This document shows positions 1 to 12,712 of a stretch of 13,197 nt of DNA, piece by piece (position 1 is the first letter of the stretch; every line of letters starts with the position of its first letter). The notes under the pieces were generated by a model. The model saw only the letters and a program-made list of their open reading frames with translations, did not search any database and was not told the origin of the DNA. The DNA comes from Bacteroidales bacterium (lineage in GTDB: Bacteria > Bacteroidota > Bacteroidia > Bacteroidales > UBA932): positions 1 to 13,197 of the forward strand of contig JAFZMA010000019.1 of NCBI GenBank assembly GCA_017551215.1. Reading direction: 5' to 3'. The position numbers and the translations under genes are program-made.

Positions 1-1
1 G

Positions 2-889
2 TACAACGCTGTAGCTTACGGACTTGACAAGGAGACCGGACTGATAGATTACGACGATATGGAGAAGAAGGCTCTGGAGCACAAGCCAAAACTGATAATC
101 GGCGGCGCCAGCGCTTATTCAAGAGAGTGGGACTGGGAGAGAATGAGAGCCATCGCAGACAAGGTGGGAGCAATCCTCTGGGTAGACATGGCACATCCTG
201 CAGGACTGATTGCCAAGGGTTTGCTGAAGAACCCTGTTAAGTACGCCCATATAGTAACTTCCACAACTCACAAGACACTGAGAGGACCTCGCGGAGGTAT
301 CATCCTGGTGGGCAAGGACTTCGAGAATCCTTGGGGACAGAAGACCCCTAAGGGAGAAATCAAGAAGATGAGCGCCATCCTCAACTCCTCCGTATTCCCT
401 GGCATCCAGGGCGGTCCGCTGGAGCACTGCATCGCCGCCAAGGCAGTTGCATTCTTCGAGGCACTGCAGCCGGAGTTCAAGACCTACGTAGAGCAGGTTC
501 ATAAGAACGCCGTTGTAATGGCAGAGGAGTTCATGGCAAGAGGCTACAAGGTTGTAAGCGGCGGAACAGACAACCACATGATGCTCATAGACCTTAGAAC
601 CAAGTTCCCTGAACTTACAGGAAAAGTTGTGGAGAACACACTGGTTCTGGCAGACATCACAGTCAACAAGAACATGGTTCCGTTCGACACCCGCTCACCG
701 TTCCAGACATCCGGTATCAGGGTTGGTACTCCGGCAGTTACGACCAGAGGACTCAAGGAGAACGATATCAAGTTCGTTGTAGGCCTGATAGACAAGGTGC
801 TGAATAACCTTACAGACGAGAAGGTTCTTGAGGATGTACGCCATCAGGTTGAGCAGTTGATGGCCGGACGCCCTCTGAACATCTGGTAG
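2..889 (+). CDS. glyA: Serine hydroxymethyltransferase, 5'-truncated by the window edge
   Basis: A PLP enzyme of the cytoplasm that interconverts serine plus tetrahydrofolate with glycine plus 5,10-methylene-THF, the main source of one-carbon units. The open frame runs in from the window edge at base 2, so about 295 C-terminal residues of the usual ~425 are present. Seen: the PLP-contacting segment [10 protein letters not shown] (D and H at about bases 185-193) and the family's lysine motif [13 protein letters not shown], whose Schiff-base lysine is the codon at 272-274. The downstream FPGIQGGP and GTPAVTTRG blocks are also typical of the family. The frame ends at TAG 887-889. The next gene, pnp, follows after 51 bp with no hairpin between them, so read-through is plausible. 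Family assignment is secure; only the N-terminus and promoter are missing. Confidence 0.97.
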
Positions 890-897
890 GGGATTCC

Positions 898-906
898 ATC
901 GCTGAG
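898..906 (+). other. ATCGCTGAG motif, site 1 (intergenic glyA-pnp)
   Basis: Exact 9-mer 9 nt after the glyA stop and 34 nt before the chosen pnp ATG, in the sense of both genes. It continues as ATCGCTGAGTAT, the same 12-mer as site 2. One of nine copies in the window; function unknown. Confidence 0.6.
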
Positions 907-940
907 TATGCTGCAGCAAAAAGAACATTTAGAAGAGATT

Positions 941-3259
941 ATGAATATTATCAAGAAAACAATCCAGCTCGCAGACGGAAGGACGATAGAAATTGAGACT
1001 GGAAAACTGGCCAAGCAGGCAGATGGCTCGGCCGTTGTAAAGATGGGTGGCACAATGCTTCTTGCCACCGTTACATGCGCCAAAGAAGCAGAAGAGGATG
1101 TGGATTTTCTCCCTCTTCAGGTAGATTACAAAGAGAAGTTCTACTCCGCGGGACGTTTCCCTGGAGGTTTCATGAAGAGAGAGGGCAAGGCAAGCGACTA
1201 TGAGATTCTGATTGCCAGACTTATAGACCGTGCACTCAGGCCTCTGTTCCCGGAAGATTTCCACGCAGCCGTATTTGTATCGGTGAACCTCATTTCAGCA
1301 GACAAGGATACTCAGCCGGACGCTCTTGCAGGTCTTGCAGCAGCAAGTGCCCTGGCAGTTTCCGATATACCTTTCAACGGACCTATTTCAGAGGTCAGGG
1401 TTGCCCGCATAGACGGACAGTATTGCATCAATCCGGGTTTCAAGGATCTGGAAAAGGCAGACCTGGAACTCATGGTTGGAGCAACAGCAAAGAACATCAT
1501 GATGGTGGAGGGAGAAATGAAGGAAGTTTCCGAGGAGGTTATGCTCGGCGCCATCATGTTCGCACACCAGGAAATCAAGAAGCATTGCGCTGTTCTTGAG
1601 GAACTTACGGATGCAGTTGGCAAACGCCAGAAGAGGGAGTATTGCCATGAGGTCAACGACGAGGATATCCGCCAGGCATGCTCCAAGTTCTGCTACGACC
1701 GCTGCTACGAGATAGCAAAGGCAGCAATGCCAAAGCAGGAGCGCACAGAAGCTTTCGATAACCTCAAGGAAGAGTTCATGCAGACCATTCCGGAAGAGGA
1801 AAGGGAAGAGAAGACCGCAATGGTAAACCGCTACTATGCAGCCGTTGAGAAGAAGGCCATGAGAGACCTCATCCTCAACGAGGGCCGCCGTCTGGACGGA
1901 CGTGCTACAACAGATGTCCGCCCAATCTGGTGCGAGGTAGACTATCTGCCATGCGCCCACGGAAGCGCAATCTTCACCCGCGGAGAGACCCAGAGCCTTG
2001 CAACGGTAACACTGGGTACCAAGCTGGATATGAAGGAGATGGACGAGGTGCTCATTGAGCGCACAGAGCCATTCGTACTCCACTACAACTTCCCTCCGTT
2101 CGCAACCGGAGAGGCAAGAGCCCAGAGAGCAACTTCCAGAAGGGAGGTGGGCCACGGCAACCTGGCAATGCGCGCCCTCAAGCCGATGGTTCCTACCGGA
2201 GAGGAAAACCCTTACGCAATAAGAGTTGTCTCAGATATCCTTGAGAGCAACGGTTCTTCTTCAATGGCAAGTGTTTGCGCCGGATGTCTGGCACTTATGG
2301 ACGCCGGTATCCAGCTTAAGAAACCTGTAGCCGGAGTGGCAATGGGACTCATAGAGCAGGACGGCAAGTATGCCATTCTTTCAGATATCCTCGGCGATGA
2401 GGACCACCTCGGAGACATGGACTTCAAGGTAGCCGGAACCAAGGACGGAATAACTGCAACCCAGATGGACATCAAGTGCGATGGCCTCTCGGAAGAGATT
2501 ATGGCAAAGGCACTTGCACAGGCCAACCAGGCACGTCAGCACATCATGGGAGAGATGATGAAGACTCTGGACGCTCCACGTCCTGAGCTTAAGCCTCACG
2601 CTCCTCGCATCGTCCAGATCAGAATTCCTGGAGAGTTTATCGGAGCCGTTATCGGCAAGGGCGGAGAAGTCATCCAGAAGATCCAGAAGGAGACAGGTAC
2701 AACAGTTACCATCACTGAGGAAAAGCAGGACGACGGAACCAGCATCGGAGCTGTAGACATCTTTGGAACAGACAAGGAGAGCATGGAGAAGGCTCTCAAC
2801 TGGATTAAGGGCATCACCACCGTTCCGGAAGCCGGACAGGTATATCACGGAAAGGTTGTTTCCATCCAGGACTTTGGAGCATTCGTGGAGATACTTCCTG
2901 GCAAGGAAGGTCTGCTGCACATTTCCGAGATGGCATGGAAGAAGACCGAGAAGGTAGAGGATGTTGTAAAGATGGGCGATGAGGTAGATGTCAAACTCCT
3001 TGAGATAGACGAGAAGACCGGCAAGATGCGCCTCTCCATGAAGGCCCTTCTGCCTAAGCCTGAGGGCTATGTAGAGCCTGTAAGGCGGCCTCGTCCAGAG
3101 GGCGGCAACAACCGCAACGGCAGCCGTCCTAACGGAAACCGTCCAAACGGAAACCGCGGAGGCAACAACAGTCACCAGAATAACAACCGTGGAGACCGTC
3201 AGAACAACCACTCTGACCGTTCACACAATACTCCAAAGGACAATCCATCCGGAGAATAA
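941..3259 (+). CDS. pnp: Polyribonucleotide nucleotidyltransferase (PNPase)
   Basis: Phosphorolytic 3'-5' exoribonuclease of mRNA decay; family members form trimeric rings. The 772-residue reading starts at ATG 941 ([21 protein letters not shown]), which matches where homologues begin; an in-frame ATG at 908 would add 11 untypical residues. Domains in order: first RNase PH fold ([16 protein letters not shown] region), helical domain, second RNase PH fold with the catalytic block [15 protein letters not shown] near residue 485, a KH domain with the GxxG loop VIGKGG near residue 573, and an S1 domain at about 632-702 ([21 protein letters not shown]). The last ~65 residues form a low-complexity tail rich in Asn, Arg and Gly with repeated NGNRPNGNR, probably a flexible RNA-binding extension. 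A hairpin terminator candidate follows at 3305-3337. The usual neighbour rpsO lies about 1.1 kb away in the opposite orientation. Confidence 0.97.
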
Positions 3260-3304
3260 AGACGGCAGTTTTTAACAAGAGACTGATATACAGATGAATA
3301 AGTG

Positions 3305-3337
3305 TTTGTGGGGTATGCTTTTAAGTTACCCCACAAA
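3305..3337 (+). terminator. Hairpin downstream of pnp, probable terminator
   Basis: Perfect 11-bp stem: TTTGTGGGGTA at 3305-3315 pairs with TACCCCACAAA at 3327-3337 across an 11-nt loop. It starts 46 nt after the pnp stop. The following TGTTTAAAT is only weakly T-rich, so an RNA-protecting 3' hairpin or attenuator is an alternative. Confidence 0.6.
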
Positions 3338-3344
3338 TGTTTAA

Positions 3345-3353
3345 ATCGCTGAG
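3345..3353 (+). other. ATCGCTGAG motif, site 2 (intergenic pnp-pnuC)
   Basis: Exact 9-mer, extended to ATCGCTGAGTAT as at site 1. It lies just after the pnp hairpin and 37 nt before the pnuC-like start codon, in the sense orientation. Confidence 0.6.
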
Positions 3354-3390
3354 TATTATATTATTATAAAATACGTTCTACAGAAGAGGG

Positions 3391-4224
3391 ATGGCAGGAG
3401 CGTTACGCATAAATGACAGGAAGTTCAACTTCTGGTTCAACATGTTCATTCTGGTGGGGATGATAACTGCCGTTGTGGTGGTCAACGTCCTCAAGATCCA
3501 GGCTCAGCACGCTGTCACTGTAAAGCAGATAGTTGTGGCCGTGGGTGCTATCATGGGAGTGGTCAATACCGTCCTTAGCGCCAACGGCAACATCTGGACA
3601 TTCCTGTTCGGCTTAATAGACGTGAGCATAGGTGCGTACGCCAATTACGACAGCGGCAACATGGGACAGTTTGCCCAGCATGCCTTCTACTTCCTCCCGA
3701 TGCAGTTCATCGGCTATTGGCAGTGGAGAAAACTCGGAGCGGGCCGGAGGATAAAACGGGAAAAATCAAGCGCTGAAACCGAATCGTCCGGTTCAGAATA
3801 CAAGACTGAGATCTCAAAAGTCAAGGCCCGCAGGCTTACCGGGCGGCAGTGGATATATGTTGGCATCGCCATAGTATTGGGAACGGCGCTGTGCTACGGC
3901 ATCCTCTACTGGATAGACCTTAAGCAGCTTGAGGCCGGAAAAATCGCTGAGATAGACCAGGCCAAGCTTTTCCTTGACAGCTTTGTCCTGGTGCTGAACT
4001 TTGCCGGGCAGATACTGATGTCCTACGCATACGCAGACCAGTGGTATCTGTGGAACCTGGTGAACATCTTCTCCATAATGCTGTGGACCAACCGCCTGAT
4101 GAGCGCCCAGAGCGACAGCTACACCATAGTGATGGTGATCAAGTACGCCTTCTACCTGCTCAACTCCCTGAACGGCCTCCGCATCTGGCTCAAACTCAGC
4201 AGACCTCAGCTCTCAACCGAATAG
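3391..4224 (+). CDS. pnuC: PnuC-family vitamin-precursor transporter
   Basis: Inner-membrane facilitator of the PnuC family, whose members import nicotinamide riboside or, in variants, thiamine or riboflavin, with trapping by a cytosolic kinase. The 277-residue protein has about seven or eight hydrophobic segments (roughly residues 14-38, 44-62, 65-82, 90-108, 150-172, 187-212, 215-235, 243-265). Family-like blocks are QFIGYWQWRK near residues 107-116 and QWYLWNLVNIFSIMLW in the C-terminal half, resembling the W-x-x-W-N substrate-site region. A polar loop at about 117-150 (many K, E, S) separates the two halves. The start at 3391 follows AGAAGAGGG and fits membrane topology. No THI, RFN or NAD riboswitch was recognised in the 131-bp upstream gap, and no kinase gene is adjacent, so the substrate is unassigned; nicotinamide riboside is the default guess. 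Confidence 0.85.
   Translation: MAGALRINDRKFNFWFNMFILVGMITAVVVVNVLKIQAQHAVTVKQIVVAVGAIMGVVNTVLSANGNIWTFLFGLIDVSIGAYANYDSGNMGQFAQHAFYFLPMQFIGYWQWRKLGAGRRIKREKSSAETESSGSEYKTEISKVKARRLTGRQWIYVGIAIVLGTALCYGILYWIDLKQLEAGKIAEIDQAKLFLDSFVLVLNFAGQILMSYAYADQWYLWNLVNIFSIMLWTNRLMSAQSDSYTIVMVIKYAFYLLNSLNGLRIWLKLSRPQLSTE
3943..3951 (+). other. ATCGCTGAG motif, site 3 (inside pnuC)
   Basis: Exact copy read in frame as Ile-Ala-Glu within the pnuC-like gene, sense orientation. Confidence 0.5.
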
Positions 4225-4280
4225 GCATCAGAAGTTCTCCAAACGCCTTACGCTTCGCTTCATCCCGCCCTGCCACCAAA

Positions 4281-4308
4281 AAAGGGTTGGCCATGTGGTC
4301 AACCCTTT
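4281..4308 (-). terminator. Strong terminator of rpsO, possibly bidirectional
   Basis: A 12-bp stem with one G-T pair: 4281-4292 pairs with 4297-4308 around the loop ATGT. On the minus strand the stem runs into TTTTTT (the AAAAAA at 4278-4283 on plus), 22 nt past the rpsO stop, which is a classic intrinsic terminator. On the plus strand it ends in CTTTAT and could also stop transcription from pnuC. Confidence 0.85.
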
Positions 4309-4330
4309 ATCATTGTAGAAACTCGTGCGA

Positions 4331-4606
4331 TTACTTACGCAGATTGAGTTCCTTGACGATGTTCCTGTATCTCTCAATGTCAACTTCCTTAAGATAATCC
4401 AGGAAGCGGCGTCTCTTACCTACGAGCATCAGAAGTGCACGCTGTGTAGCATGGTCCTTCTTGTTCCTCTTCATGTGCTCGGTAAGGTGAGCGATACGGT
4501 AGGAAAATAAAGCAATCTGACTTTCAGCAGAACCAGTGTCTTTATTAGACTTTCCGTACTTGCCAAATATCTCTTGCTTCTTGTCTGAATTCAAATACTC
4601 AGCCAT
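4331..4606 (-). CDS. rpsO: 30S ribosomal protein S15
   Basis: Primary 16S rRNA-binding protein of the small-subunit platform. The 91-residue product is close to the usual 88-89, with typical blocks: DTGSAESQIALFSYRIAHLTEHMK in the first half and HATQRALLMLVGKRRRFLDYLK in the second, containing the rRNA-contacting His/Asp and basic residues. It starts at ATG 4606 and stops 22 nt before the terminator at 4281-4308. It is monocistronic here and divergent from the YgjP-like gene, with a candidate promoter at 4681-4688. In many bacteria rpsO sits directly upstream of pnp in the same operon; here the two are near each other but on opposite strands with pnuC between. Confidence 0.97.
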   Translation of the reverse strand: MAEYLNSDKKQEIFGKYGKSNKDTGSAESQIALFSYRIAHLTEHMKRNKKDHATQRALLMLVGKRRRFLDYLKEVDIERYRNIVKELNLRK

Positions 4607-4680
4607 TGTGCTTAAGATTTTTGTTTGTTAATAATTGTTTTAACCGTGGAGAACCCGCTCGAGTTTCCCCATCGGGGACG

Positions 4681-4688
4681 CAAAGATA
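4681..4688 (-). promoter_or_regulatory. Candidate rpsO promoter, -7 element
   Basis: On the minus strand this reads TATCTTTG, an exact match to the Bacteroidota -7 consensus TAnnTTTG, 74 nt before the rpsO start. The expected TTTG at about -33 is not clean at the usual spacing, so confidence is moderate. Confidence 0.5.
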
Positions 4689-4785
4689 TGAAAGTTTTTC
4701 AAAATCCAAGCATTTAGTGTGGCATTTGGCTTTCAAACCAAGGGGAGGTTTTGATGTGGAATGGCTTGGGCGTTCAGAGTTTTTG

Positions 4786-4793
4786 TAATTTTG
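4786..4793 (+). promoter_or_regulatory. Candidate promoter of the YgjP-like gene, -7 element
   Basis: TAATTTTG fits TAnnTTTG exactly; an imperfect CTTG lies 17 nt upstream at 4765-4768. Transcription would begin around 4798-4800, leaving a very short leader before ATG 4813, which favours the in-frame ATG at 4828 as the real start or a near-leaderless mRNA. Confidence 0.5.
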
Positions 4794-4812
4794 CGTTCGA
4801 ACTAAACCGCGG

Positions 4813-5439
4813 ATGTTTAGAGCCGATATGCAGAGCAAGATAGTAAAATATGATAACGGGCTGGGGGAGGTGACCTTTACAAAGTATCCCCAGAGCCGGT
4901 CTATCAGGGTGATGGTGTCCGCCAAGGGGGAGGTCAAGGTTACCCTGCCTCCGTATGTGGGCTATGAGGAGGCGGAGCGGTTCCTTTTTTCCGTTGGCGG
5001 AAAGATTGTGGCACAGAGGAATGAGGTGCTCAGACGCCTGCAGTCTGCCGCCCAGGCCGGAGCTCCGTCCGACTATCAGACTAACAAGTTAGCTCACAAG
5101 ATTCTGCCGCAGCGTACCCGTCAGATGTACGAGCTTATGACGCAAAAGGTCACCATCCGCAATCGCCTGGGGATTGTGATTAAGGACCCGTTCCGCTACA
5201 ACAGGGTGGCAATAAAGGACAACTCCTCCAACTGGGGAAGCTGCTCAACGCTGCGCAACATCAACCTCAACATGAAACTTGTCCGCCTTCCGGAGGAACT
5301 TATGGACTATGTCATAGCCCACGAACTCTGTCATCTGGTCTATCCCAACCACAGCACAAGGTTCCACGCCCTCCTGAATGCAATAACGGACGGCAAGGAA
5401 AAGACTCTTGCCGCCCGTCTGAAGCAATACAAGCTGTAA
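4813..5439 (+). CDS. YgjP-like (DUF45) zinc metallopeptidase
   Basis: Predicted soluble cytoplasmic metallohydrolase of the YgjP/DUF45 family, related in fold to SprT and WSS1-type proteases; no substrate is established. The 208 residues contain the zinc site AHELCHLVYPNHSTRFH (H170, E171, H174 and the NHS..F block with H180), and the family's upstream WGSCS at 141-145. There is no signal peptide. The N-terminal half, with VTLPPYVGYEEAERF, is also family-like. A second in-frame ATG at 4828 would shorten it by five residues and suits the candidate promoter better. It is divergent from rpsO, and its stop is only 5 bp from the stop of the convergent lipoprotein gene, so the two transcripts must overlap at their 3' ends. 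Family call is strong; cellular role unknown. Confidence 0.88.
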   Translation: MFRADMQSKIVKYDNGLGEVTFTKYPQSRSIRVMVSAKGEVKVTLPPYVGYEEAERFLFSVGGKIVAQRNEVLRRLQSAAQAGAPSDYQTNKLAHKILPQRTRQMYELMTQKVTIRNRLGIVIKDPFRYNRVAIKDNSSNWGSCSTLRNINLNMKLVRLPEELMDYVIAHELCHLVYPNHSTRFHALLNAITDGKEKTLAARLKQYKL

Positions 5440-5444
5440 CTCCC

Positions 5445-6173
5445 TTATCGCTGCATCTTCACGAAGGTAGTGCCGTTGAACTGGTATTCAACGGGATTTG
5501 CCAGTTCCCACAGCCTGTCATCGGCGATGTAGCTAGGTCTGAGCAAAAGGACATTGTTGTCTTGTTCTCCGTGCCTGAGGTCTATGCCCCTAAGAGAGCC
5601 TTTCTCCCTGTCATACTCTCTCTTCATTTCCTTTACGGCGGACTTCAGGTCTGCAGGAACATCCACACCCTCAAAGAATTCGTCAAAAGCAGGAGCCTTG
5701 ATCGGGTTCTCCACTTCTGTAAGCGCTCCGTCTTTTAGGATGAAGGTATTCATCTTGTCCAGAACAGCCCCATCCACACCGGCTTCCGTGTAATATAGTA
5801 CAAAGATGCCGTCTTCTTCATTTAGCATGTGGTAGCAGTAGAGGTAAACTATGTCGTAGATGCCGCCATCTCCGTTCATGAAGCTGATGAAGTTAGGTGA
5901 AGTGTACTCATCAAAGACACGCTTAGTTTCGGTGGCATTTCTGTAAACGGAATCTGGGATTCTATTCGGAATCATGCTACGCGGAATGAGCTTGAGAGCT
6001 TCCTGGGCATAATCTGTGTTATATGCAACTGGCTGTGGCTCAGCCTCCGGAGTCTGGACCGCCTCGGTCTGTGTGGTGTCAGCGGCCGGAGCTGCAGCCT
6101 CTCCCGGCTTGCCCTTGCAGCTAGTCATAAAGGCGAGGGCTGCGAGTAATAATACTATCTGATAAGTCTTCAT
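5445..6173 (-). CDS. Lipoprotein of unknown function
   Basis: A 242-residue protein, starting at ATG 6173 (an ATG two codons upstream at 6179 is also possible). The N-terminus is a lipoprotein signal: MKTYQ, a hydrophobic run and the lipobox-like MTSC, so it is probably lipidated and anchored in the inner or outer membrane. After the Cys comes an Ala/Pro/Thr/Glu-rich linker to about residue 48, including VQTPEAEPQP, then a folded domain with many acidic and aromatic residues (for example DGGIYDIVYLYCYHML and DGIFVLYYTEAG). I do not recognise the family. It is the last gene of the minus-strand cluster, after a probable terminator at 6189-6218, so it may have its own promoter. Its linker shares the string VQTPEA, and most of the underlying DNA, with the lipoprotein at 10243. 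Confidence 0.8.
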   Translation of the reverse strand: MKTYQIVLLLAALAFMTSCKGKPGEAAAPAADTTQTEAVQTPEAEPQPVAYNTDYAQEALKLIPRSMIPNRIPDSVYRNATETKRVFDEYTSPNFISFMNGDGGIYDIVYLYCYHMLNEEDGIFVLYYTEAGVDGAVLDKMNTFILKDGALTEVENPIKAPAFDEFFEGVDVPADLKSAVKEMKREYDREKGSLRGIDLRHGEQDNNVLLLRPSYIADDRLWELANPVEYQFNGTTFVKMQR

Positions 6174-6188
6174 AAACAAAAGAAAAAT

Positions 6189-6218
6189 AGGCTTGCCCGA
6201 ATCGCGTCAGACAAGCCT
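6189..6218 (-). terminator. Hairpin after the 92-residue gene, probable terminator
   Basis: AGGCTTG (6189-6195) pairs with CAAGCCT (6212-6218). On the minus strand the stem is followed by TATTTTTCTTTTG. It lies 16 nt after the stop of the gene at 6235, which separates that gene from the lipoprotein downstream. Confidence 0.6.
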
Positions 6219-6234
6219 GTCAATTGAAGAAATG

Positions 6235-6513
6235 TTACTTCTGGCTTAGAGCGCTAAGTCTCTCGTAGAGAGCATCTATACCTTCTATAAGCTCCTTTGT
6301 CACTCCCTTGTAATACTTGTCTGCCTTGATTTCAGGATTGCGGTTGTTGATCTTGTCAAAGAGGTCGTCCTGGAGGTCGAGTGCATCGCCGATGATTTCC
6401 CCAACCTTGTCCATCTTCTCCTCTCCGTTGAGTTCCAGATAAATGAAGCAGTCGTCTACAAGTTCTGCAACAAGGAATTCTACATCCTTCTTAATAGTTC
6501 TTAAATTTCTCAT
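6235..6513 (-). CDS. Small conserved-looking protein of unknown function
   Basis: A 92-residue, probably helical, acidic cytoplasmic protein (MRNLRTIKKDVEFLVAEL and onwards) with no signal peptide, Cys-rich motif or membrane segment. Patterns such as VDDCFIYLEL, IIGDALDLQDDLFDKIN and the C-terminal ALYERLSALSQK suggest an amphipathic helical bundle. It resembles small hypothetical proteins that I recall being common in Bacteroidales, but I cannot assign a function. It is third in the minus-strand cluster, 59 bp after the epimerase, with motif site 4 in that gap, and is followed by a hairpin terminator at 6189-6218. Coding status is supported by length, normal composition and start/stop placement. 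Confidence 0.75.
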   Translation of the reverse strand: MRNLRTIKKDVEFLVAELVDDCFIYLELNGEEKMDKVGEIIGDALDLQDDLFDKINNRNPEIKADKYYKGVTKELIEGIDALYERLSALSQK

Positions 6514-6541
6514 ATAATTCTTTTAATGTTTTCTTTTTTTA

Positions 6542-6550
6542 CTCAGCGAT
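6542..6550 (-). other. ATCGCTGAG motif, site 4 (intergenic epimerase - 92-aa gene)
   Basis: Exact copy on the minus strand, 22 nt after the epimerase stop and 28 nt before the next start codon, sense orientation. It continues as ATCGCTGAGTA, like sites 1 and 2. Confidence 0.6.
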
Positions 6551-6572
6551 AAAAACGCGTTGTCATAATCTT

Positions 6573-7757
6573 TTATTCCTCTGCGGCATACTTGAGGTTC
6601 ACGCCCTTGTTCATCTCCAGACCCAGACCAGGCTTGGAAGAAGGAACTATGCGTCCGTCCTCTACGGTGGAGGAGTGGAATACGTCGTTGGCAATCAGCC
6701 AGTTGCCGTCTAGGTCCGTCCACTCGCACACGGGAGCTATCTGCGCGCCTGCAGCGATGGCTACGGAAGTCTCCGTCATACAGCCGATCATCAGCTTCAT
6801 TCCCAGAGCCTGCGCCAGAGATACCATCTCCCTTGCCTCGTGCAGTCCGGTGCACTTCATCAGCTTGATGTTGATTCCGGAATAGTGGCCGTAAAGCTTT
6901 CTTACATCGCTGAGCCTCTGGCAAGCCTCATCCGCCATGATAGGAAGCGGGCTTCTCTCTGTAACCCAGCCGGTTTCCTCAAGCATCAGCTTTGGCATCG
7001 GCTGCTCAATCATGTTCACGTTCTTGGTTGCCAGCCAGTTAATCATGTCAAGGGCATAGTGCTTGTCTTTCCAGCCCTGGTTTGCATCTATGCAGATGGT
7101 GGTATCTGTGACCTCACGTATAGTGTTGATCATCATCTTGTCCTGCTCCTCCGTGCGGCCCAGCTTAACCTTGATAAGATGGCCCTCAGCGGCGGCTTCC
7201 TTTGCCTTCTCCCTTACCTCTTCCTTGCTTGCAAGACCTACGGTGAATGAGTTGTAAGGGCAGTTCTTAGGGTTGAATCCCCAGATTTTCCACCATGGCT
7301 GTCCGATCATGTTTCCTACCAGATCGTGGAGGGCGATGTCTATGGACGCTTTTGCGGCGCAGTTGTAAGTTGTGATAGCGTCCATCTCTGCCATAATCTC
7401 TCCGATCATGAACGGATCCTTGAAGGTCTTAAGCACAGGCCTTGCCTTCTTCAAATAGTCTATGGCTGAGTTAGTTGTCTCTCCCAGGTATGGAGGCATG
7501 GCGGCCTCTCCGTATCCAACATATCCGTCGTAGGTGATTCTTGTCAGGACGATAGGGGTTGTGCTTCTGGAACTGTTGGAAATGGTGAAAACGTGTTTCA
7601 TCTTAGCGGTGAACGGGCACCATTCAAGCTCCAGCTCCTTCTTCCCGGACGGCTTGGACACACCCTTTGCGCGGGCGAAAATCTGCGATGGACTCAGCAG
7701 AGCGGCAGCGGCTGTAAGCAGTCCTGCGCTCTTAAGGAATGTTCTTCTGTCGGTCAT
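6573..7757 (-). CDS. Tat-exported L-Ala-D/L-Glu (dipeptide) epimerase
   Basis: Enolase-superfamily enzyme that racemises the Glu of L-Ala-D-Glu from murein, so that ordinary peptidases can finish digestion. The 394 residues begin with a twin-arginine signal (DRRTFLKSAG, then a hydrophobic Ala/Leu run to about residue 29), implying export across the inner membrane. Catalytic signature seen in order: acid-base KxK (K196-V-K198), metal ligands D224 (IDANQGW), E251 (IEQPMP) and D276 (MADEA), and the opposing lysine K298 (NIKLMKCTG). The DLD at 348-350 (EWTDLDGNW) matches the DxD that binds the dipeptide amino group in AE-epimerases. It lies 64 bp downstream of the NlpC/P60 peptidase that would generate its substrate, in the YkfC-YkfB type of pairing. 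The activity is well supported; other dipeptide specificities within the family are possible. Confidence 0.9.
   Translation of the reverse strand: MTDRRTFLKSAGLLTAAAALLSPSQIFARAKGVSKPSGKKELELEWCPFTAKMKHVFTISNSSRSTTPIVLTRITYDGYVGYGEAAMPPYLGETTNSAIDYLKKARPVLKTFKDPFMIGEIMAEMDAITTYNCAAKASIDIALHDLVGNMIGQPWWKIWGFNPKNCPYNSFTVGLASKEEVREKAKEAAAEGHLIKVKLGRTEEQDKMMINTIREVTDTTICIDANQGWKDKHYALDMINWLATKNVNMIEQPMPKLMLEETGWVTERSPLPIMADEACQRLSDVRKLYGHYSGINIKLMKCTGLHEAREMVSLAQALGMKLMIGCMTETSVAIAAGAQIAPVCEWTDLDGNWLIANDVFHSSTVEDGRIVPSSKPGLGLEMNKGVNLKYAAEE
6906..6914 (+). other. ATCGCTGAG motif, site 5 (inside epimerase gene)
   Basis: Exact copy on the plus strand, antisense to the gene; the coding strand reads CTC AGC GAT (Leu-Ser-Asp). 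Confidence 0.5.
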
Positions 7758-7799
7758 CTTGTGTGTATTTTAAAATGTTTATCTGTTTTTCCAGTTAAT

Positions 7800-7808
7800 C
7801 TCAGCGAT
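7800..7808 (-). other. ATCGCTGAG motif, site 6 (intergenic NlpC/P60 - epimerase)
   Basis: Exact copy on the minus strand, 13 nt after the NlpC/P60 stop and 42 nt before the epimerase start, sense orientation. It overlaps a small CGAT/ATCG stem-loop. Confidence 0.6.
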
Positions 7809-7821
7809 GCAATATCGGTGC

Positions 7822-9033
7822 TTAATTTGTGAGGCCGGCGTTCTTAACACTCACAACGCCTTTGCCCTGGTCTGCCGTGCCGATGATTCTGCGGGCCTTG
7901 AGCAGGCGCTTTGCTCCGGCGTAGTAATCCTTCTCCCCAGGAATCAGGCTGTTGATTCTCACCACGTTAGATGAGTGGATAATCATGCCGTCTCCCATGT
8001 AGATAGCAACGTGCGTAACCCTTTCCTTGCGGCCGTTCTCCGCCTTGCGCCCGAAGAAGATCAGGTCTCCCGGACGCAGGTTGCCGAGCGCAGCCTTTGT
8101 GTATTCTCCCTCCACAAAACGATGCACATCCACGCTGTCTCCGGTCTTGCACTGCTGAGACGCGTCCCTCCTCAGCACATACCCGTTGAGGAAGTATGCA
8201 GTTTTGCTCAAACCGCTGCAATCCACGCCCTTTACGCTGGTTCCGCCCCAAACGTAAGGGAACCCGCAGAACTGTTTTGCGGTCTCCACAACGTTCTTCT
8301 CCGTAGGAACGGCGCTGTCCATCCAAGCCTTCAGATCCATAACCTCAGACGCCTGAATATAGCCAGTTCTGCCATCCGCCACAGACACCTTCCTCCAGCT
8401 TCCGGCCTTGCCTTCATCGATGAGTATACAGCCCCAAACCAGGTCGCTCACCGGCAGGCTGTTCACGTTCTTGTCAGAGTAAAGGGTTGTATATTTGACC
8501 TTTACAAAAACCTTAGGCTTAGCAAGGTAGGCATCGTACTCCTCCTTAGTCATCTCAGCGATGCTGCGGGTTATCACCCACGCGGTGTAGCCTTCCATAT
8601 TTACGCAGCGATACCAGTCGTCGTACTCCTCCAGTATCCGCACCGGCATACCCATCAGGGCCTGCGTTCCGCTCTCCGCACTGAACCTCCCGTCGCAGTT
8701 GAAGCTTGCCGTAGACATGCACACTATGCCGTATGTCTTGCCCTTCAACTTTGCGGACGGCAGCAGGTCTATCCTGTTCTCCGCAATTATTCCTGCCTCT
8801 GCCAGGCGTGCGGTAAGAGCCTCAACGGCAGCCTTCTCCGTGGTAGCACCAACGAGAAGGAGCTTCCCGCCCTTCTCTATCAGGTTCACCTCGTAGGTCT
8901 TGTCTCTGGAATCGGGAGCGAACTCGTTCAGAACCTCCCTGTTAATACGGTTGAAAAGGGAACCCATGTCTTGCCCCCAGGCGCACAGGCTCATGAATAG
9001 GGCTGCGGAAAGCAGCATGCAGAATTTCTTCAT
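7822..9033 (-). CDS. Exported NlpC/P60 gamma-D-glutamyl-L-diamino acid endopeptidase (YkfC type)
   Basis: Cell-wall peptide hydrolase expected to cut L-Ala-gamma-D-Glu from the diamino acid of murein stem peptides. The 403-residue protein has an N-terminal Sec signal (MKKFCMLLSAALFMSLCAWG, likely cut before QDMG). Next comes a region of about 100 residues, then SH3b-like parts (around 120-155 and 172-230, with VRILEEYDDWYRCVNMEGYTAWV and WRKVSVADGRTGYI). The NlpC/P60 catalytic domain spans about 245-385. Catalytic residues visible: C272 (GVDCSGLSK), H341 (VTHVAIYMGDG) and third residue H353 (IIHSS). The GFPYVWGGTS and LRPGDLIFFG blocks are typical. It is the first gene of the minus-strand cluster, with a -7-like element at 9056-9063, and the epimerase follows directly. 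The YkfC-like role is inferred from domain order plus that neighbour. Confidence 0.9.
   Translation of the reverse strand: MKKFCMLLSAALFMSLCAWGQDMGSLFNRINREVLNEFAPDSRDKTYEVNLIEKGGKLLLVGATTEKAAVEALTARLAEAGIIAENRIDLLPSAKLKGKTYGIVCMSTASFNCDGRFSAESGTQALMGMPVRILEEYDDWYRCVNMEGYTAWVITRSIAEMTKEEYDAYLAKPKVFVKVKYTTLYSDKNVNSLPVSDLVWGCILIDEGKAGSWRKVSVADGRTGYIQASEVMDLKAWMDSAVPTEKNVVETAKQFCGFPYVWGGTSVKGVDCSGLSKTAYFLNGYVLRRDASQQCKTGDSVDVHRFVEGEYTKAALGNLRPGDLIFFGRKAENGRKERVTHVAIYMGDGMIIHSSNVVRINSLIPGEKDYYAGAKRLLKARRIIGTADQGKGVVSVKNAGLTN
8554..8562 (-). other. ATCGCTGAG motif, site 7 (inside NlpC/P60 gene)
   Basis: Exact copy on the coding strand, read in frame as Ile-Ala-Glu. Confidence 0.5.
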
Positions 9034-9055
9034 CGCATTGAATATTTACGAATAA

Positions 9056-9063
9056 CAAATATA
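9056..9063 (-). promoter_or_regulatory. Candidate promoter of the NlpC/P60-epimerase cluster, -7 element
   Basis: The minus strand reads TATATTTG, an exact TAnnTTTG match, 22 nt before the NlpC/P60 start codon. No clear TTTG is present at the -33 position. Confidence 0.5.
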
Positions 9064-9130
9064 CAAAAAAGAAAGAATCCGCGCCATCCCCAGCCCTTCA
9101 GAACCCTGTCCTGCTGAACGGAAGTGCCGT

Positions 9131-9237
9131 AAGGCTTTTCAGAAGCCTTCGCTCTGCTCATCCCTCCCACTTCGCAAAGCTTGTGGGCCCCTCCCATTTA
9201 TGTGGTCATGGGTGACCACAGGCCCTTGAAAAGCCTT
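9131..9237. repeat. Structured unit with terminal inverted repeats
   Basis: AAGGCTTTTCA (9131-9141) is repeated inverted as TGAAAAGCCTT (9227-9237). Nested inside are GGGCC (9185-9189) with GGCCC (9221-9225), CCCAC (9166-9170) with GTGGG (9183-9187), and a perfect hairpin TGTGGTCA-tggg-TGACCACA (9201-9220). It abuts the 56-bp repeat exactly. It could be a miniature element or a transcribed structured RNA. Confidence 0.55.
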
Positions 9238-9293
9238 CCGCTCTTCCTGTTCTCTCCCCACCCAGCACATCCAACCGTTTTACCGCATCTCTG
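9238..9293 (+). repeat. 56-bp direct repeat, copy 1
   Basis: Identical at 54 of 56 positions to 9739-9794, in the same orientation, 501 bp apart; it begins CCGCTCTTCCTG. The high identity implies recent duplication or gene conversion. Confidence 0.85.
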
Positions 9294-9301
9294 GACGTTT
9301 T

Positions 9302-9515
9302 TGCTCCCTCTGTCCCATTCCATGTATCAGAAAGTGCACTTTCCCCCTAAAAGTGCTCTCGCTGTCCTGTTCTGCAGCGATTGGCCCTGCAACGCAAACC
9401 CCTCAATATATGTTACTTACGCACTTTAACCTATGCAATTTTCTATAGGTTCAATGTGGGAACTCACTGATTTCCAGGCATATCCCTTGCAGAGCGTTTC
9501 TCCCAAATTTCTCCT
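9302..9515 (-). repeat. Dispersed repeat family, copy R3 (inverted)
   Basis: On the minus strand this aligns with R2 (12445-12705) over about 200 bp. Shared blocks in the same order are GCTCTGCAAGGGATATG (R2: GCGCTGCAAGAGATGTA), TTGAACCTAT, GCGTTGCAGGGC, CAGCGAGAGC and TGGGACAG..GGAGCA. It contains a 7-bp hairpin (AACCTAT 9428-9434 with ATAGGTT 9445-9451) and the perfect palindrome AAAGTGCACTTT at 9331-9342. Outer ends are approximate. Confidence 0.7.
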
Positions 9516-9608
9516 TTCTGGATTCCGCTCCCGCCAGCGTTCCTGCCTTTCAGCTATGCAGACGCACTCCTACATCAAAACCTCCACCTGCAAGCTCATT
9601 CCAGAATA

Positions 9609-9722
9609 GCAGGTGGCGGCCAACTGCCTGAAGAACAGTAATATGAGGATTTTTCCTCCAGCGCTTTTGCGGGAGGGATATCTCTTATGGGCCTGATATC
9701 CAACCTCTTATCCGCCACCGCC
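9609..9722. repeat. Hairpin element, copy 1 (GGTGGCGG...CCGCCACC ends)
   Basis: Ends in inverted GGTGGCGG (9612-9619) and CCGCCACC (9712-9719). The first 30 bp match copy 2 at 27 of 30 positions, and the right end (GCCTGAT...TTATCCGCCACCGC) also matches. The centre differs from copy 2 but still folds: CCTCCAGCGC with GCGGGAGG around TTTT (9655-9676), extended imperfectly to 9641-9688. Confidence 0.65.
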
Positions 9723-9738
9723 TTACCAGTGCCGTTCC

Positions 9739-9794
9739 CCGCTCTTCCTGTTCTCTCCCCACCCAGCACATCCAACCGTCTTACCGCATATCTG
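9739..9794 (+). repeat. 56-bp direct repeat, copy 2
   Basis: Second copy of 9238-9293 with two substitutions. It lies between the two hairpin elements. Confidence 0.85.
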
Positions 9795-9810
9795 CCAGCC
9801 AACACGGAAT

Positions 9811-9926
9811 GCGGGTGGCGGCCAACTGCTTGAAAAACAGCGGCTTAAGTGGTTGGTCCTGCGCGATTTTTGCTGCAGGGCTAACCATTTATAAGCCTGA
9901 TTACAAGGTATTTATCCGCCACCGCT
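9811..9926. repeat. Hairpin element, copy 2
   Basis: Same terminal inverted repeats as copy 1 (GGTGGCGG from 9814; CCGCCACC at 9916-9923). The centre makes a long stem: GGCTTA (9842-9847) with TAAGCC (9892-9897), then 9850-9862 with 9875-9887 (TGGTTGGTCCTGC against GCAGGGCTAACCA) with only two G-T pairs. Because the centre differs from copy 1 while pairing is retained, structure appears to be conserved rather than sequence. Confidence 0.65.
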
Positions 9927-9932
9927 TACGTT

Positions 9933-10008
9933 CCGGCAGTTATCCTCGCCAAGCGAGGAGAGCCCCTCAATAGCTCCCCACAGCCTTGGCGGGAGATAAC
10001 TGCTCCGG
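9933..10008. repeat. Imperfect inverted repeat
   Basis: The left arm 9933-9953 (CCGGCAGTTATC...GCCAAG) is repeated inverted at 9985-10008 (CTTGGCGG...GATAACTG..CCGG) with two small length differences. An alternative local stem CCTCG/CGAGG sits at 9944-9958. Confidence 0.6.
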
Positions 10009-10070
10009 CAACCCTTCCCACGCCTGCATTCCGTATGTCAGCAGCCGCATCTGATGAACTGAAAAATGTA

Positions 10071-10078
10071 TAACTTTG
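10071..10078 (+). promoter_or_regulatory. Candidate promoter of the lipoprotein-radical SAM pair, -7 element
   Basis: TAACTTTG matches TAnnTTTG exactly; no clear -33 TTTG was seen. Transcription from about 10084 would place the whole 14-bp tandem array in a 5' leader of roughly 160 nt. Confidence 0.5.
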
Positions 10079-10098
10079 TATGAACGCGGAATACTGGT

Positions 10099-10238
10099 AC
10101 GATTGAACCAGAACAGTAGAACCAGTACGATTGAACCAGTACGATTGAACCGGTACGGTAGAACCAGTACGATTGAAGCAGTACGGTAGAACAATTACGA
10201 ATGAATAACTACAATTGAACAAGAACGATTAAACGATA
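10099..10238 (+). repeat. Ten tandem 14-bp units upstream of a lipoprotein gene
   Basis: Ten contiguous 14-bp units fill 10099-10238, ending 4 bp before ATG 10243. The type unit is ACGATTGAACCAGT, with a variant ACGGTAGAACCAGT. Units 3 to 6 are nearly identical and units 7 to 10 are degenerate, as in an ageing slippage array. TACTGGT just upstream (10092-10098) is complementary to the ACCAGTA at several unit junctions. The unit length is not a multiple of three and the array is not convincingly coding. Confidence 0.9.
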
Positions 10239-10242
10239 CTTT

Positions 10243-11088
10243 ATGAAAAGGGTTTTAATAATTGCCTCTGCGATTGCTGTTTCTGCATTGACAGTATGCT
10301 GCAAGTCCAACAGCCAGACCCAGGGTCAGCAGCCAGAGCAGACAAACGGAAATGAAACAGTCCAGACGGTACAGACTCCGGAGGCCGGAACTTTGACCGC
10401 ATACTACGCTACGGAAGACTTCAGCGATATCCCAAGTGACCGCCATTTTCAGAAGGGAGAGCTGATCAGCGATGACAATGATCCGTTTAACAAGGTTCTG
10501 GACTATGATGCAGAAAACTACAAGTTTCTACCGGAAGAAGCCGAAGACGGCAGCGTGTATGGTGATTTCATCTTCCCGAAGTCCAAAGCCGAGAAGAAAA
10601 CATACACACAGAACCAGCTGACAACGGAACTTGTCGGTGATAGAGCTATCTTCAAAGATGACAAAGGCAACATAGCAACCATATTCAAATCCAACAGAAA
10701 CGGTCAGACTCTCTATACAATGAACAGTGAGAAATGGGAATTTGAACCAGCTCCGGAGGATGTTCTGAAAAAGTATGACAACTGCTTTGTTATCACTGTC
10801 CATTTTTCTGACGGTCTGTTTGAAGAGCCGCTGGAAACCGATGGAGATATCATCAAGCTGTACCAGACGGAAGGTGATCCTGCAAACCCTACATATCGTG
10901 GCCTTATAGAAGACGGCTGGTATAACAAAGGTGATTGGGACTATAAGAAATCCGCATACGATGAAAACGGAAATCTTCTGGTTCCTCAGGAAAGGACCGT
11001 GGACATTCCTATGGAGCATTCCGTTGCGTATATCGGCTCCCTCAACGCCCTTTACGTAGATGGCATCCTGTACTACAGGGTCAAGTAA
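10243..11088 (+). CDS. Lipoprotein of unknown function
   Basis: A 281-residue protein with a lipoprotein-type signal: MKRVLIIASAIAVSALTVCCKS, with the lipidated residue either C19 or C20. A Gln/Asn/Thr-rich linker follows (to about residue 47), containing VQTVQTPEAG, then an acidic domain with many Asp, Glu, Tyr and Phe. Local patterns include SDDNDPFNKVLDYDAENYKF, FKDDKGNIATIFKSN and, at the end, HSVAYIGSLNALYVDGILYYRVK. I do not recognise the family; it is likely an envelope-anchored protein. The start at 10243 is the first ATG after the 14-bp repeat array. The radical SAM gene begins 5 bp after its stop, so the two are probably co-transcribed and may be translationally coupled. Its linker resembles that of the lipoprotein at 5445-6173 (VQTPEA). 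Confidence 0.85.
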   Translation: MKRVLIIASAIAVSALTVCCKSNSQTQGQQPEQTNGNETVQTVQTPEAGTLTAYYATEDFSDIPSDRHFQKGELISDDNDPFNKVLDYDAENYKFLPEEAEDGSVYGDFIFPKSKAEKKTYTQNQLTTELVGDRAIFKDDKGNIATIFKSNRNGQTLYTMNSEKWEFEPAPEDVLKKYDNCFVITVHFSDGLFEEPLETDGDIIKLYQTEGDPANPTYRGLIEDGWYNKGDWDYKKSAYDENGNLLVPQERTVDIPMEHSVAYIGSLNALYVDGILYYRVK

Positions 11089-11093
11089 ATGGT

Positions 11094-12290
11094 ATGGCAG
11101 AACTGAATTCGTTTGTGGACTATTTCCGTAAGAAGTACGGGGCGCGGATGCAGAAGGTAGTTGTAGACGCTGGCTTCACGTGCCCTAACCGCGACGGAAG
11201 CAAAGGTACGGGCGGCTGCTCCTTCTGCCTGAACAACGCCTTCCACCCCAACTATTGCACCCCGGACAAGCCCATCCACCAGCAGATAGACGAGGGCATA
11301 GAGTTCCACCGTGTCCGCTACCGCCATGCTCAGCGATACATTGCTTATTTCCAGCCGTATAGCAACACCTACGCCCCGGTAGAGCGCCTGAGGGAACTCT
11401 ACGCCGAGGCCCTTTCCCATCCGCTCATAGAGGGCCTTGTCATCGGCACCCGCCCGGACTGCATCGATGAAGAAAAGCTGGACCTCCTCCAAAGCATCCA
11501 GGAAGGAACGTTCAAAATGCCTGCACGGAAAGTTACATCTTCAAAAGTTTCGCAGACAGAGCATATCTCTGAATTTGCAGGAGAGAATCTTTTCGGAGAT
11601 GGTTCTTCTGGCGAAAAGTCCGTTGGCAATAGTTTTGCGAAAGAAGGTTTTGTTGGAGAATATCATGTCGAAGAAAGATCTGTTGGAGAAGGAATTTATG
11701 GGGATTGTATTGGGAAGAAGATTGTAATCGTGGAATATGGGATAGAGAGCTGCTACAATAAGACGCTGGAGAGGATCGGCCGCGGCCACGATTTCGAGTG
11801 CGCGCGGCGGGCGGTGGAAGCAACGGCCAAGCACGGCCTCACCCAGTGCGCCCACTTCATCTTCGGGCTGCCGGGGGAATCGCTGAGCCAGATGATGGAA
11901 GAGGCGGAAATCATCAACACCCTGCCCTTGAACAGCGTCAAGTTCCACCAGCTGCAGATAATCCGCGGCACCAGGATGGAGGAGGAGTATCGTACTCAGC
12001 GACAGGATTTCCACGAGTTTACGCTGGATGGCTATCTGGACTTTATGGCGGAGTTTATCCCGCGCCTGCGCCCGGACATTTATATAGACCGCTTTGCCAG
12101 CGAGGTTCCTCCGCGATACCTTTCCCCGCTCCAGAAGGGCTGGGGCCTCATCCGCTACCAGGAACTCCTCGCCCTGCTCCGCCAACGCATGTCCGCGAAC
12201 AGCCCCGCCGCGAATCTCAGCCAGCATGTGAGTGCGCCAGATAGCCCAGCGAATCTCCGCCAGGGTCAGTTTGCGCCGGGAAAGTTTTGA
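11094..12290 (+). CDS. YhcC/TIGR01212-family radical SAM protein with repeat insertion and repeat-derived tail
   Basis: Radical SAM protein of the YhcC type, related to the Elp3 group; substrate not established. The [4Fe-4S] cysteines are C30, C42 and C45 (FTCPNRDG, then GGCSFC). Family blocks YFQPYSNTYAP, GTRPDCIDEEKLDLL, VEYGIESCYNKTLERIGRGHDF and HFIFGLPGES are all present. Two oddities are visible. Between LDLLQSIQEG and IVIVEYG, where I recall only a short loop in homologues, lies a ~70-residue insertion (about 139-208) made of 15-bp-period units. Beyond the normal C-terminus (about residue 366, LRQRM) a tail repeats NSPAANLSQ..SAP and DSPANLRQGQFAP; its DNA belongs to the dispersed repeat that recurs downstream. 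Neither disrupts the frame, so the enzyme may be functional. The start at 11094 overlaps no other gene and is 5 bp after the lipoprotein stop. Confidence 0.92.
   Translation: MAELNSFVDYFRKKYGARMQKVVVDAGFTCPNRDGSKGTGGCSFCLNNAFHPNYCTPDKPIHQQIDEGIEFHRVRYRHAQRYIAYFQPYSNTYAPVERLRELYAEALSHPLIEGLVIGTRPDCIDEEKLDLLQSIQEGTFKMPARKVTSSKVSQTEHISEFAGENLFGDGSSGEKSVGNSFAKEGFVGEYHVEERSVGEGIYGDCIGKKIVIVEYGIESCYNKTLERIGRGHDFECARRAVEATAKHGLTQCAHFIFGLPGESLSQMMEEAEIINTLPLNSVKFHQLQIIRGTRMEEEYRTQRQDFHEFTLDGYLDFMAEFIPRLRPDIYIDRFASEVPPRYLSPLQKGWGLIRYQELLALLRQRMSANSPAANLSQHVSAPDSPANLRQGQFAPGKF
11329..11337 (-). other. ATCGCTGAG motif, site 8 (inside radical SAM gene)
   Basis: Exact copy antisense to the gene; the coding strand reads GCT CAG CGA TAC (Ala-Gln-Arg-Tyr), a different frame from sites 3, 5 and 7. 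Confidence 0.5.
11526..11717 (+). repeat. 15-bp-period coding tandem array inside the radical SAM gene
   Basis: Twelve to thirteen units of 15 bp (one of 12 bp) keep the frame and encode pentapeptides: RKVTS, SKVSQ, TEHIS, EFAG, ENLFG, DGSSG, EKSVG, NSFAK, EGFVG, EYHVE, ERSVG, EGIYG, DCIGK. The consensus is roughly E-x-x-V-G. The stretch is visibly more AT-rich than the flanking gene. Confidence 0.8.
11879..11887 (+). other. ATCGCTGAG motif, site 9 (inside radical SAM gene)
   Basis: Exact copy, sense orientation, read GAA TCG CTG AGC (Glu-Ser-Leu-Ser). A one-mismatch copy (CTCAGCGAC) lies at 11995-12003. Confidence 0.5.
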
Positions 12291-12444
12291 AGAATAGGCG
12301 CTGCAAGAGATATAGCTGAAAACCAGCAAGTTGTTAAAATGAGCCTAACTGAAAACGCATAGGTAAAAAGTTGTAAGGTGCACATATTGAGCTACTTGCG
12401 TTGCAGGACGATTTTCGTAGAATGTTTCACTGGGAGCAATTGAG
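12239..12444 (+). repeat. Dispersed repeat family, copy R1 (overlaps the radical SAM 3' end)
   Basis: Tandem with R2 at a 206-bp period; identity is roughly 80% by eye. Its first 52 bp are the last codons and stop of the radical SAM gene (DSPANLRQGQFAPGKF), and the rest is non-coding. It contains a GCGCC...GGCGC inverted pair around the stop codon and a CCTA...TAGG pair near 12345-12362. Confidence 0.8.
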
Positions 12445-12705
12445 AGATAGCCCCGAGAATCTCCGCCAGGGTCTGTTTGCGCCGGGAAAGTTTTGAAGGA
12501 TAGGCGCTGCAAGAGATGTAGCTGAAAATCAGCAAGTTGTTAAAATGAACCTACCTGAAAACGCCCAGGTTAATAGTTGTAAGGCACTCATATTTAGAGA
12601 TTTACGTTGCAGGGCGATTGCGGCAGAATATGTCAGCGAGAGCGTTTGAGGAAGGTAATGTGCCTGCTGACACAGAGATTGGGACAGCAGGAGCACTTTA
12701 AAAGA
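12445..12705 (+). repeat. Dispersed repeat family, copy R2
   Basis: Second tandem copy; its start would encode DSPENLRQGLFAPGKF and a stop, but there is no upstream gene for it to end. It carries GCGCC...GGCGC and AACCT...AGGTT inverted pairs. Beyond the R1 match it continues to align with R3 through TGGGACAG..GGAGCA, almost to the start of the phosphoesterase gene at 12713, so this repeat forms that gene's entire upstream region. The right boundary is approximate. Confidence 0.75.
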
Positions 12706-12712
12706 AAGTTTT

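Follow-up and report, generated by a model that had tools for sequence, protein, structure and literature searches.

A dispersed nine-base word with clade-specific dialects in Bacteroidales, a candidate DNA-uptake word

To our knowledge, DNA-uptake words are established in two proteobacterial families, and the element described here is a candidate for such a word in Bacteroidota: the 9-mer ATCGCTGAG, which recurs along a stretch of 13,197 nucleotides from a Bacteroidales bacterium (GenBank assembly GCA_017551215.1, contig JAFZMA010000019.1, positions 1 to 13,197; this whole stretch is hereafter called the window). The uptake signal sequences (USS) of Haemophilus influenzae are evenly spaced, and ComP of Neisseriaceae is a type IV pilin. 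According to previous studies, the DNA uptake sequence (DUS) of Neisseriaceae, which is bound by ComP, occurs in eight dialects that follow phylogeny and keep an invariant core CTG (PMC3630211). The USS of Pasteurellaceae was described as a 9-base core followed by an A/T tract, AAAGTGCGGTCAATTTT in its extended form, with two types following phylogeny and a type IV minor pilin as the proposed receptor (PMC12616744). Counts in relatives of the window make us close to certain that ATCGCTGAG is a word over-represented throughout the genome, specific to a clade, and varying in dialects, and we consider it probably the uptake word of a DNA-transformation system, by which the chromosome would be marked as self.

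Within the phylum Bacteroidota, the closest precedents come from Riemerella, which belongs to a different class. In Riemerella columbina, own DNA was reported to compete best in transformation, and the candidates described were A/T-rich k-mers without a specific word (PMC7965970). Transformation of Riemerella anatipestifer requires ComEC, DprA, ComF, and RecA, together with four proteins that have no homologs in known uptake machines (PMC8459023). Because of these two species, uptake without a classical machine and self-preference both have precedents in Bacteroidota; R. columbina would share the phylum and the self-preference with the present case, and it differs in lacking a specific word. 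Among open-licence papers, judged by titles and the beginnings of abstracts, no uptake or Chi word of Bacteroidota was found in print; the titles among the matches listed for the 9-mer as literature text were unrelated, and passages of PMC1193525 yielded nothing on a Chi of Bacteroides.

The original prediction, made from the sequence of the window, claimed nine copies of the 9-mer where about 0.1 would be expected. All nine exact copies were recovered at the positions and on the strands given, against a mean of 0.13 and a maximum of 2 in 200 dinucleotide-preserving shuffles of the window, and both an order-2 and an order-3 Markov model rank ATCGCTGAG first for over-representation among the 9-mers of the window. 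When the window was compared with 80 loci of a PNPase scan (81 sequences in all), its dispersed 9-mer scored 34.2, and the other 80 reached at most 15.8, which is under half. Intergenic positions account for four copies (898, 3345, 6542, 7800), and genes contain the other five. The degenerate motif RTCGCNGAG has 13 copies in the window, 16.1 times the expectation there. The copies are listed below, where L- and G-numbers, here and throughout, are labels for the loci and genomes of relatives used in comparison.

898..906, plus strand: ATCGCTGAG, between glyA and pnp; gap in the G024 alignment
3345..3353, plus strand: ATCGCTGAG, between pnp and the PnuC-like gene; G024 identical across 19 bases
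3943..3951, plus strand: ATCGCTGAG, within the PnuC-like gene, read I-A-E; G024 has ATCGCCGAG
6542..6550, minus strand: ATCGCTGAG, directly 3' of the enolase-superfamily gene; G024 keeps the word
6906..6914, plus strand: ATCGCTGAG, within the enolase-superfamily gene, antisense; kept in G001 (L001), G024 has ATCGGTGAG
7800..7808, minus strand: ATCGCTGAG, between two minus-strand genes; intact in neither G024 nor G001
8554..8562, minus strand: ATCGCTGAG, within the NlpC/P60 gene; G024 has ATCGCGGAG
11329..11337, minus strand: ATCGCTGAG, within the radical SAM gene, antisense; absent in G024 and G001
11879..11887, plus strand: ATCGCTGAG, within the radical SAM gene; kept in both G024 and G001
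2390..2398, minus strand: RTCGCNGAG variant ATCGCCGAG, within pnp; recurs in the pnp of relatives and is hence partly shared coding sequence
10266..10274, minus strand: RTCGCNGAG variant ATCGCAGAG
11995..12003, minus strand: RTCGCNGAG variant GTCGCTGAG
12109..12117, minus strand: RTCGCNGAG variant ATCGCGGAG

The window itself is a 13.2-kb stretch, and the genome-wide counts were taken from the genomes of relatives, with the reversed word in the same genomes as control. The best PNPase match of the window (93%) is a Bacteroidales assembly from yak rumen (L001, G001), which carries 326 copies of ATCGCTGAG and one of the reversed word. Among the 39 genomes of its genus, which is the genus nearest to the window, 11 hold ATCGCTGAG at 168-625 copies against 0-3 of the control. 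The family set comprised 299 genomes drawn from a larger group, and none of the 260 outside the genus exceeds 53 copies. Within the genus the count tracks how closely the PNPase resembles that of the window: ten genomes have a near-full PNPase at 93-97% identity, and each of them is a high carrier, whereas no genome at 91% or less has a high count. Two genomes are represented by PNPase fragments; the count is high in G040 (92%) but not in G037 (93%). The word is thus clade-specific and genome-wide among the relatives; its count there is neither near expectation nor raised in the window alone, since hundreds of copies were found. The predicted spacing of about one per 1.5 kb does not hold for the exact word in the 11 carriers (about one per 3.5 to 10 kb) and does hold for RTCGCNGAG, whose density is 0.50-0.69 per kb in samples of G001, G024, and G018 and 0.50-0.71 per kb over four samples.

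Codon or protein constraint had been rejected as the cause from the window, and the relatives bear this out, with counts far above synonymous-codon shuffles, in several frames and both orientations. Sixty synonymous-codon shuffles within genes were made for each of seven samples (G018, G033, G046, G001, G024, G036, G013; window excluded), with approximate gene sets from a home-made caller that missed the window gene at 11094-12290. The observed counts were 135 versus 8.1 (sd 3.2) in G018, 115 versus 2.1 (sd 1.5) in G033, 20 versus 1.2 in G046, and 9-23 versus 1.4-3.3 in G001, G024, G036, and G013, that is, 6 to 55 times the shuffle mean in all seven. The ratio of copies on the same strand as the gene to those on the opposite strand was 73:63 in G018 and 62:53 in G033, and no gene-strand bias was significant in four smaller samples.

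Other words replace ATCGCTGAG elsewhere in the genus. K-mer discovery and Markov expectations, both computed on partial genome samples, gave CTGTCGGGA as the top word in G033, G046, and G035, and CTATCGTGA or CTATCGGGA in G025 and G027. Whole-genome counts put CTGTCGGGA at 125-717 copies in 12 of the 39 genus genomes, with no overlap with the 11 carriers of ATCGCTGAG, and CTATCG[GT]GA at 103-315 copies in nine, including six in which both other words stay below 100 and this one stands at 103-195 (reversed control 18-40). Altogether, 29 of the 39 genomes have at least one of the three words at 100 copies or more. The ratio of observed to expected RTCGCNGAG is 11.6-17.8 in crown samples and 0 to 4.4 elsewhere; for CTGTCGNGA it is 68 in G033, 57 in G035, and 11 in G046, and for CTATCGNGA 45 in G025 and 29 in G027. 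The genus therefore has at least three related dialects, CTGTCG-N-GA, CTATCG-N-GA, and RTCGC-N-GAG.

The PNPase tree, built from the window and 30 of the 39 genus genomes with a midpoint root used for drawing only, orders these words as dialects, with exceptions. The carriers of ATCGCTGAG and the window fall into a single starred clade of 13 rows; the carriers of CTGTCGGGA stand on either side of the midpoint root, with the CTATCG[GT]GA carriers between them, and G012, which has 33 copies of CTGTCGGGA, is placed among the CTGTCGGGA carriers. At orthologous pnp loci, the crown (ten genomes, 53 kb) holds 34 RTCGCNGAG and no CTGTCGNGA, versus no RTCGCNGAG and ten CTGTCGNGA in the basal group (11 genomes, 57 kb); part of the 34 crown sites is shared coding sequence in pnp. 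Dialects with a common inner core thus follow the phylogeny, apart from G002, G041, and an overlap of CTGTCGNGA and CTATCGNGA in G033.

Two further observations concern the distribution of the dialects. Outside the genus, CTGTCGGGA stands at 101-150 copies against 11-33 of the control in four of the 260 family genomes (G083, G123, G134, G164), and a wider or older spread of the word is possible; no clear word emerged from the fragmented samples of G083, G164, and G134 (26-47 kb each), which weighs little because only one to three copies would be expected in them. Palindromic TATCGCGA and ATCGCGATA are also enriched in G001 (17 versus 1.2 expected and 11 versus 0.33) and in G045 (16 versus 2.0 and 12 versus 0.9), and may be relics of the CTATCGNGA dialect.

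Common to the dialects is R-TCG-(C)-N-GA followed by an A-rich 3' tract. In the logo of G018 (147 sites), T2, C3, G4, G7, and A8 are near-invariant, position 1 is A and sometimes G, and position 6 is nearly free (T, then C, then G or A); just before the core, C or A prevails and G is rare, and A/T predominates at positions 11-14. In that of G033 (171 sites), C1, T4, C5, G6, G8, and A9 are near-invariant, position 7 prefers G, then C, then T, and positions 12-15 are A-rich, with 78% A at position 15. The pooled A content of the 3' tract is 65% versus 30% in G033 and 44% versus 27% in G018, so that a flanking A/T tract of the kind seen in USS-type words is present. Aligned as C-T-R-TCG-N-GA over R-TCG-C-N-GA-G, the crown word would carry one additional base, placed between TCG and GA. 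We regard ATCGCTGAG as the probable consensus of a genome-wide recognition word with the core [CA]-RTCGC-N-GAG and an A-rich 3' flank; that it is one of several dialects and that its position 6 is nearly free could not be seen in a single window.

With the DUS, this word shares many genome-wide copies, related words that track phylogeny, and an invariant inner core; it differs in its pilus-related gene content and in the pairing of its sites (both given below), and in that uptake is here something we infer. With the USS it shares a 9-base core with an A/T tract, types that track phylogeny, and an even spacing like that in H. influenzae, and it differs in the core itself, in the phylum, and in the nearly free inner position of the genus word. 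Compared by sequence, the word is unrelated to those of both Neisseriaceae and Pasteurellaceae.

If ATCGCTGAG is an uptake word, an outer-membrane or periplasmic protein would bind it on double-stranded DNA and word-bearing DNA would be taken up preferentially; ComEC would pass one strand, which DprA and RecA would recombine. The word would accumulate through the uptake bias itself, and drift of the receptor would lead to drift of the word and thereby to dialects that hinder exchange between species. ComEC and DprA were each found in 38 of the 39 genus genomes. Neither the putative receptor nor the outer-membrane channel seems to be a type IV pilus. With somewhat more reserve, we lean towards the view that uptake words for self-recognition evolved independently a third time, in Bacteroidota that lack type IV pili; receptor specificity would have changed at least twice within the genus, from CTGTCGNGA to CTATCGNGA and then to RTCGCNGAG, and the dialects may be barriers to recombination between species. 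If this holds, uptake words arise outside the two proteobacterial families and without type IV pili, and natural transformation shapes these uncultured bacteria; the word would be a direct means of isolating the receptor and of opening the group to genetic work, and the dialect series would serve for testing whether words isolate species.

A number of results weigh against an uptake word. ComEC and DprA are also present in the control genome Bacteroides ihuae and are therefore no proof of competence. T2SSF, the platform of type IV pili and type II secretion, was found in none of the 39 genus genomes versus 13 of 14 control genomes (no other pilus proteins were searched), and the machinery would therefore differ from that of the described uptake-word systems. 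Close pairs of sites (100 bp or less, any orientation) are not in excess, with 5 versus 4.4 expected in G018, three of them inverted, and 4 versus 5.7 in G033; no Neisseria-like terminator pairing was seen, a trait that is frequent in that genus and does not define uptake words. Ten of the 39 genomes (G002, G011, G012, G014, G026, G034, G037, G042, G043, G047) have all three words below 100 copies, and nine of these ten have ComEC; no clear word was found in samples of G002, G041 (34 kb), G043, G030, and G042. G002 and G041, with 50 and 52 copies, stand inside the ATCGCTGAG carrier clade, where they adjoin G036 with weak support. The dialects overlap, in that CTATCGNGA is also at 33 times expectation in G033; the pnp loci of the middle group (six genomes, 30 kb) hold five RTCGCNGAG and no CTATCGNGA; and the sample of G013 ranks ATCGCCGAG (16) above ATCGCTGAG (14).

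The distribution of words over genomic islands points both ways. The longest motif-free gap among four samples, 14.3 kb in G024, holds a BREX-type defence island, which speaks for an uptake word, but the gap is borderline, with 0.06 such gaps expected in that sample.

L171 (G024 C24), 7547-19182: BREX-type island with BrxP, BrxC, PglZ, and BrxL beside a DUF1016/YhcG nuclease; motif-free

Low-GC 5-kb windows are significantly poorer in words in G033 and G001, and not significantly so in G024 (p 0.18) and G018 (p 0.50). Compositionally atypical genes are not depleted of words: when the genes of G018 were divided into fifths, the two least typical fifths had 0.41 and 0.46 words per kb versus 0.19 in the most typical. 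The borderline status of the BREX gap and the absence of their own dialect from the middle-group pnp loci slightly lower our confidence in an uptake word. As a marker of the receptor, DUF5689, a domain of one Riemerella uptake protein, was tried and rejected, since it occurs in 21 of the 39 genomes but is missing from the four with the highest CTGTCGGGA counts, which also counts against an uptake word.

The main rival, which we judge unlikely, is a Chi-type hotspot, at which an AddAB/RecBCD enzyme that processes a break would read the word in single-stranded DNA and switch from degradation to RecA loading. Like Chi sites, the word is short, over-represented, and dispersed, here genome-wide, and a PDDEXK_1 nuclease match of the AddB/RecB type, which does not separate the subunits, is present in 38 of the 39 genus genomes. 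Chi sites of Escherichia coli and Lactococcus lactis clearly favour the leading strand, whereas a check for strand skew in the relatives found replication-strand bias to be little or none: the ratio of G-rich to C-rich strand was 61:65 in G018 (95% interval 0.39-0.57; 126 of 147 sites entered, with short contigs and tails left out) and 46:41 in four other crown samples (0.42-0.64), and G033 leans to the G-rich strand, as would suit Chi, but at most slightly (98:73, p = 0.066, 0.50-0.65). The length of the core (9-10 bases), its free inner position, the A-tract, and the existence of several dialects inside one genus also speak against Chi. Between the two types that the original prediction had named, the relatives thus support an uptake word, with hundreds of copies, dialects, an A-tract, and both orientations, and disagree with Chi in lacking a strong strand bias.

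A transcriptional or post-transcriptional regulatory motif, or the target of an orphan methyltransferase, is in our view improbable. Intergenic density exceeds genic density in the samples of G024, G013, and G033, and four of the nine window copies are intergenic; in G018, G001, G036, and G046, however, it is no higher, and both gene orientations are used. The conservation at orthologous positions that had been suggested as a check proved low. Of the nine window words, three are kept in syntenic G024, two are position-6 variants, and four are gone; in pooled crown alignments (dropped if below 300 bp, below 70% or above 98% identity), 16 of 70 words are intact versus 37% of random 9-mers in the same alignments, and conservation is 0.66 in words versus 0.61 in flanks. 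This low conservation is read as turnover of sites, which argues against a site-specific role; together with mainly genic positions, it disfavours a purely regulatory motif, and methylation alone would give no reason for hundreds of extra copies.

More doubtful still is a word for chromosome segregation or organisation of the KOPS, Noc, SlmA, or matS type. The sites are spread over the sampled chromosome without excluded regions, and in G018 they are spaced more evenly than in 99.6% of 2000 random placements (CV, coefficient of variation, 0.81 versus 0.99); the spacing leans to evenness in G033 (7.6% of simulations) and does not differ from random in G024 and G001. There is, however, no clear replichore polarity or strong strand bias, nor is any macrodomain left free of sites: in the G033 samples, 20-kb bins give near-Poisson counts (25 bins, variance/mean 1.17, minimum 3). 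Several hundred sites are also far above the numbers of Noc, SlmA, or matS sites. Finally, it is scarcely credible that the word arises as a side effect of codon usage or composition or from a mobile short repeat: the sense I-A-E frame is indeed commonest in G018 (51 of 136 genic copies, with 132 in four of the six frame and orientation classes) and for ATCGCCGAG (28 of 57), but the codon shuffles contradict it, genomes of the same genus without the word carry another, and a mobile element is dismissed because no long conserved sequence surrounds the core, only weak neighbours and the A-tract.

Apart from the word, the window looks like ordinary chromosome. It codes for serine hydroxymethyltransferase (SHMT, partial), PNPase, a PnuC-like transporter, a YgjP-like metallopeptidase, an enolase-superfamily enzyme, an NlpC/P60 protein, a radical SAM protein, and a partial metallophosphoesterase; two further open reading frames (ORFs) had no Pfam match, and no Rfam match was found in the window. 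About 1.15 kb (9081-10227) is missing from the syntenic stretches of G024 and G001; this segment has no ORF of 100 or more amino acids and no exact word, and contains a 56-base repeat pair, 96% identical, at 9238 and 9739. At 10097-10234, immediately upstream of the ORF at 10243, lies an array in which TRF counts 7.4 copies of a GTACGATTGAACCA-like unit of 14 bases. A 206-base tandem duplication (12239-12650) lies at and past the 3' end of the radical SAM gene, and G024 apparently has one unit versus two in the window, as judged from alignment lengths.

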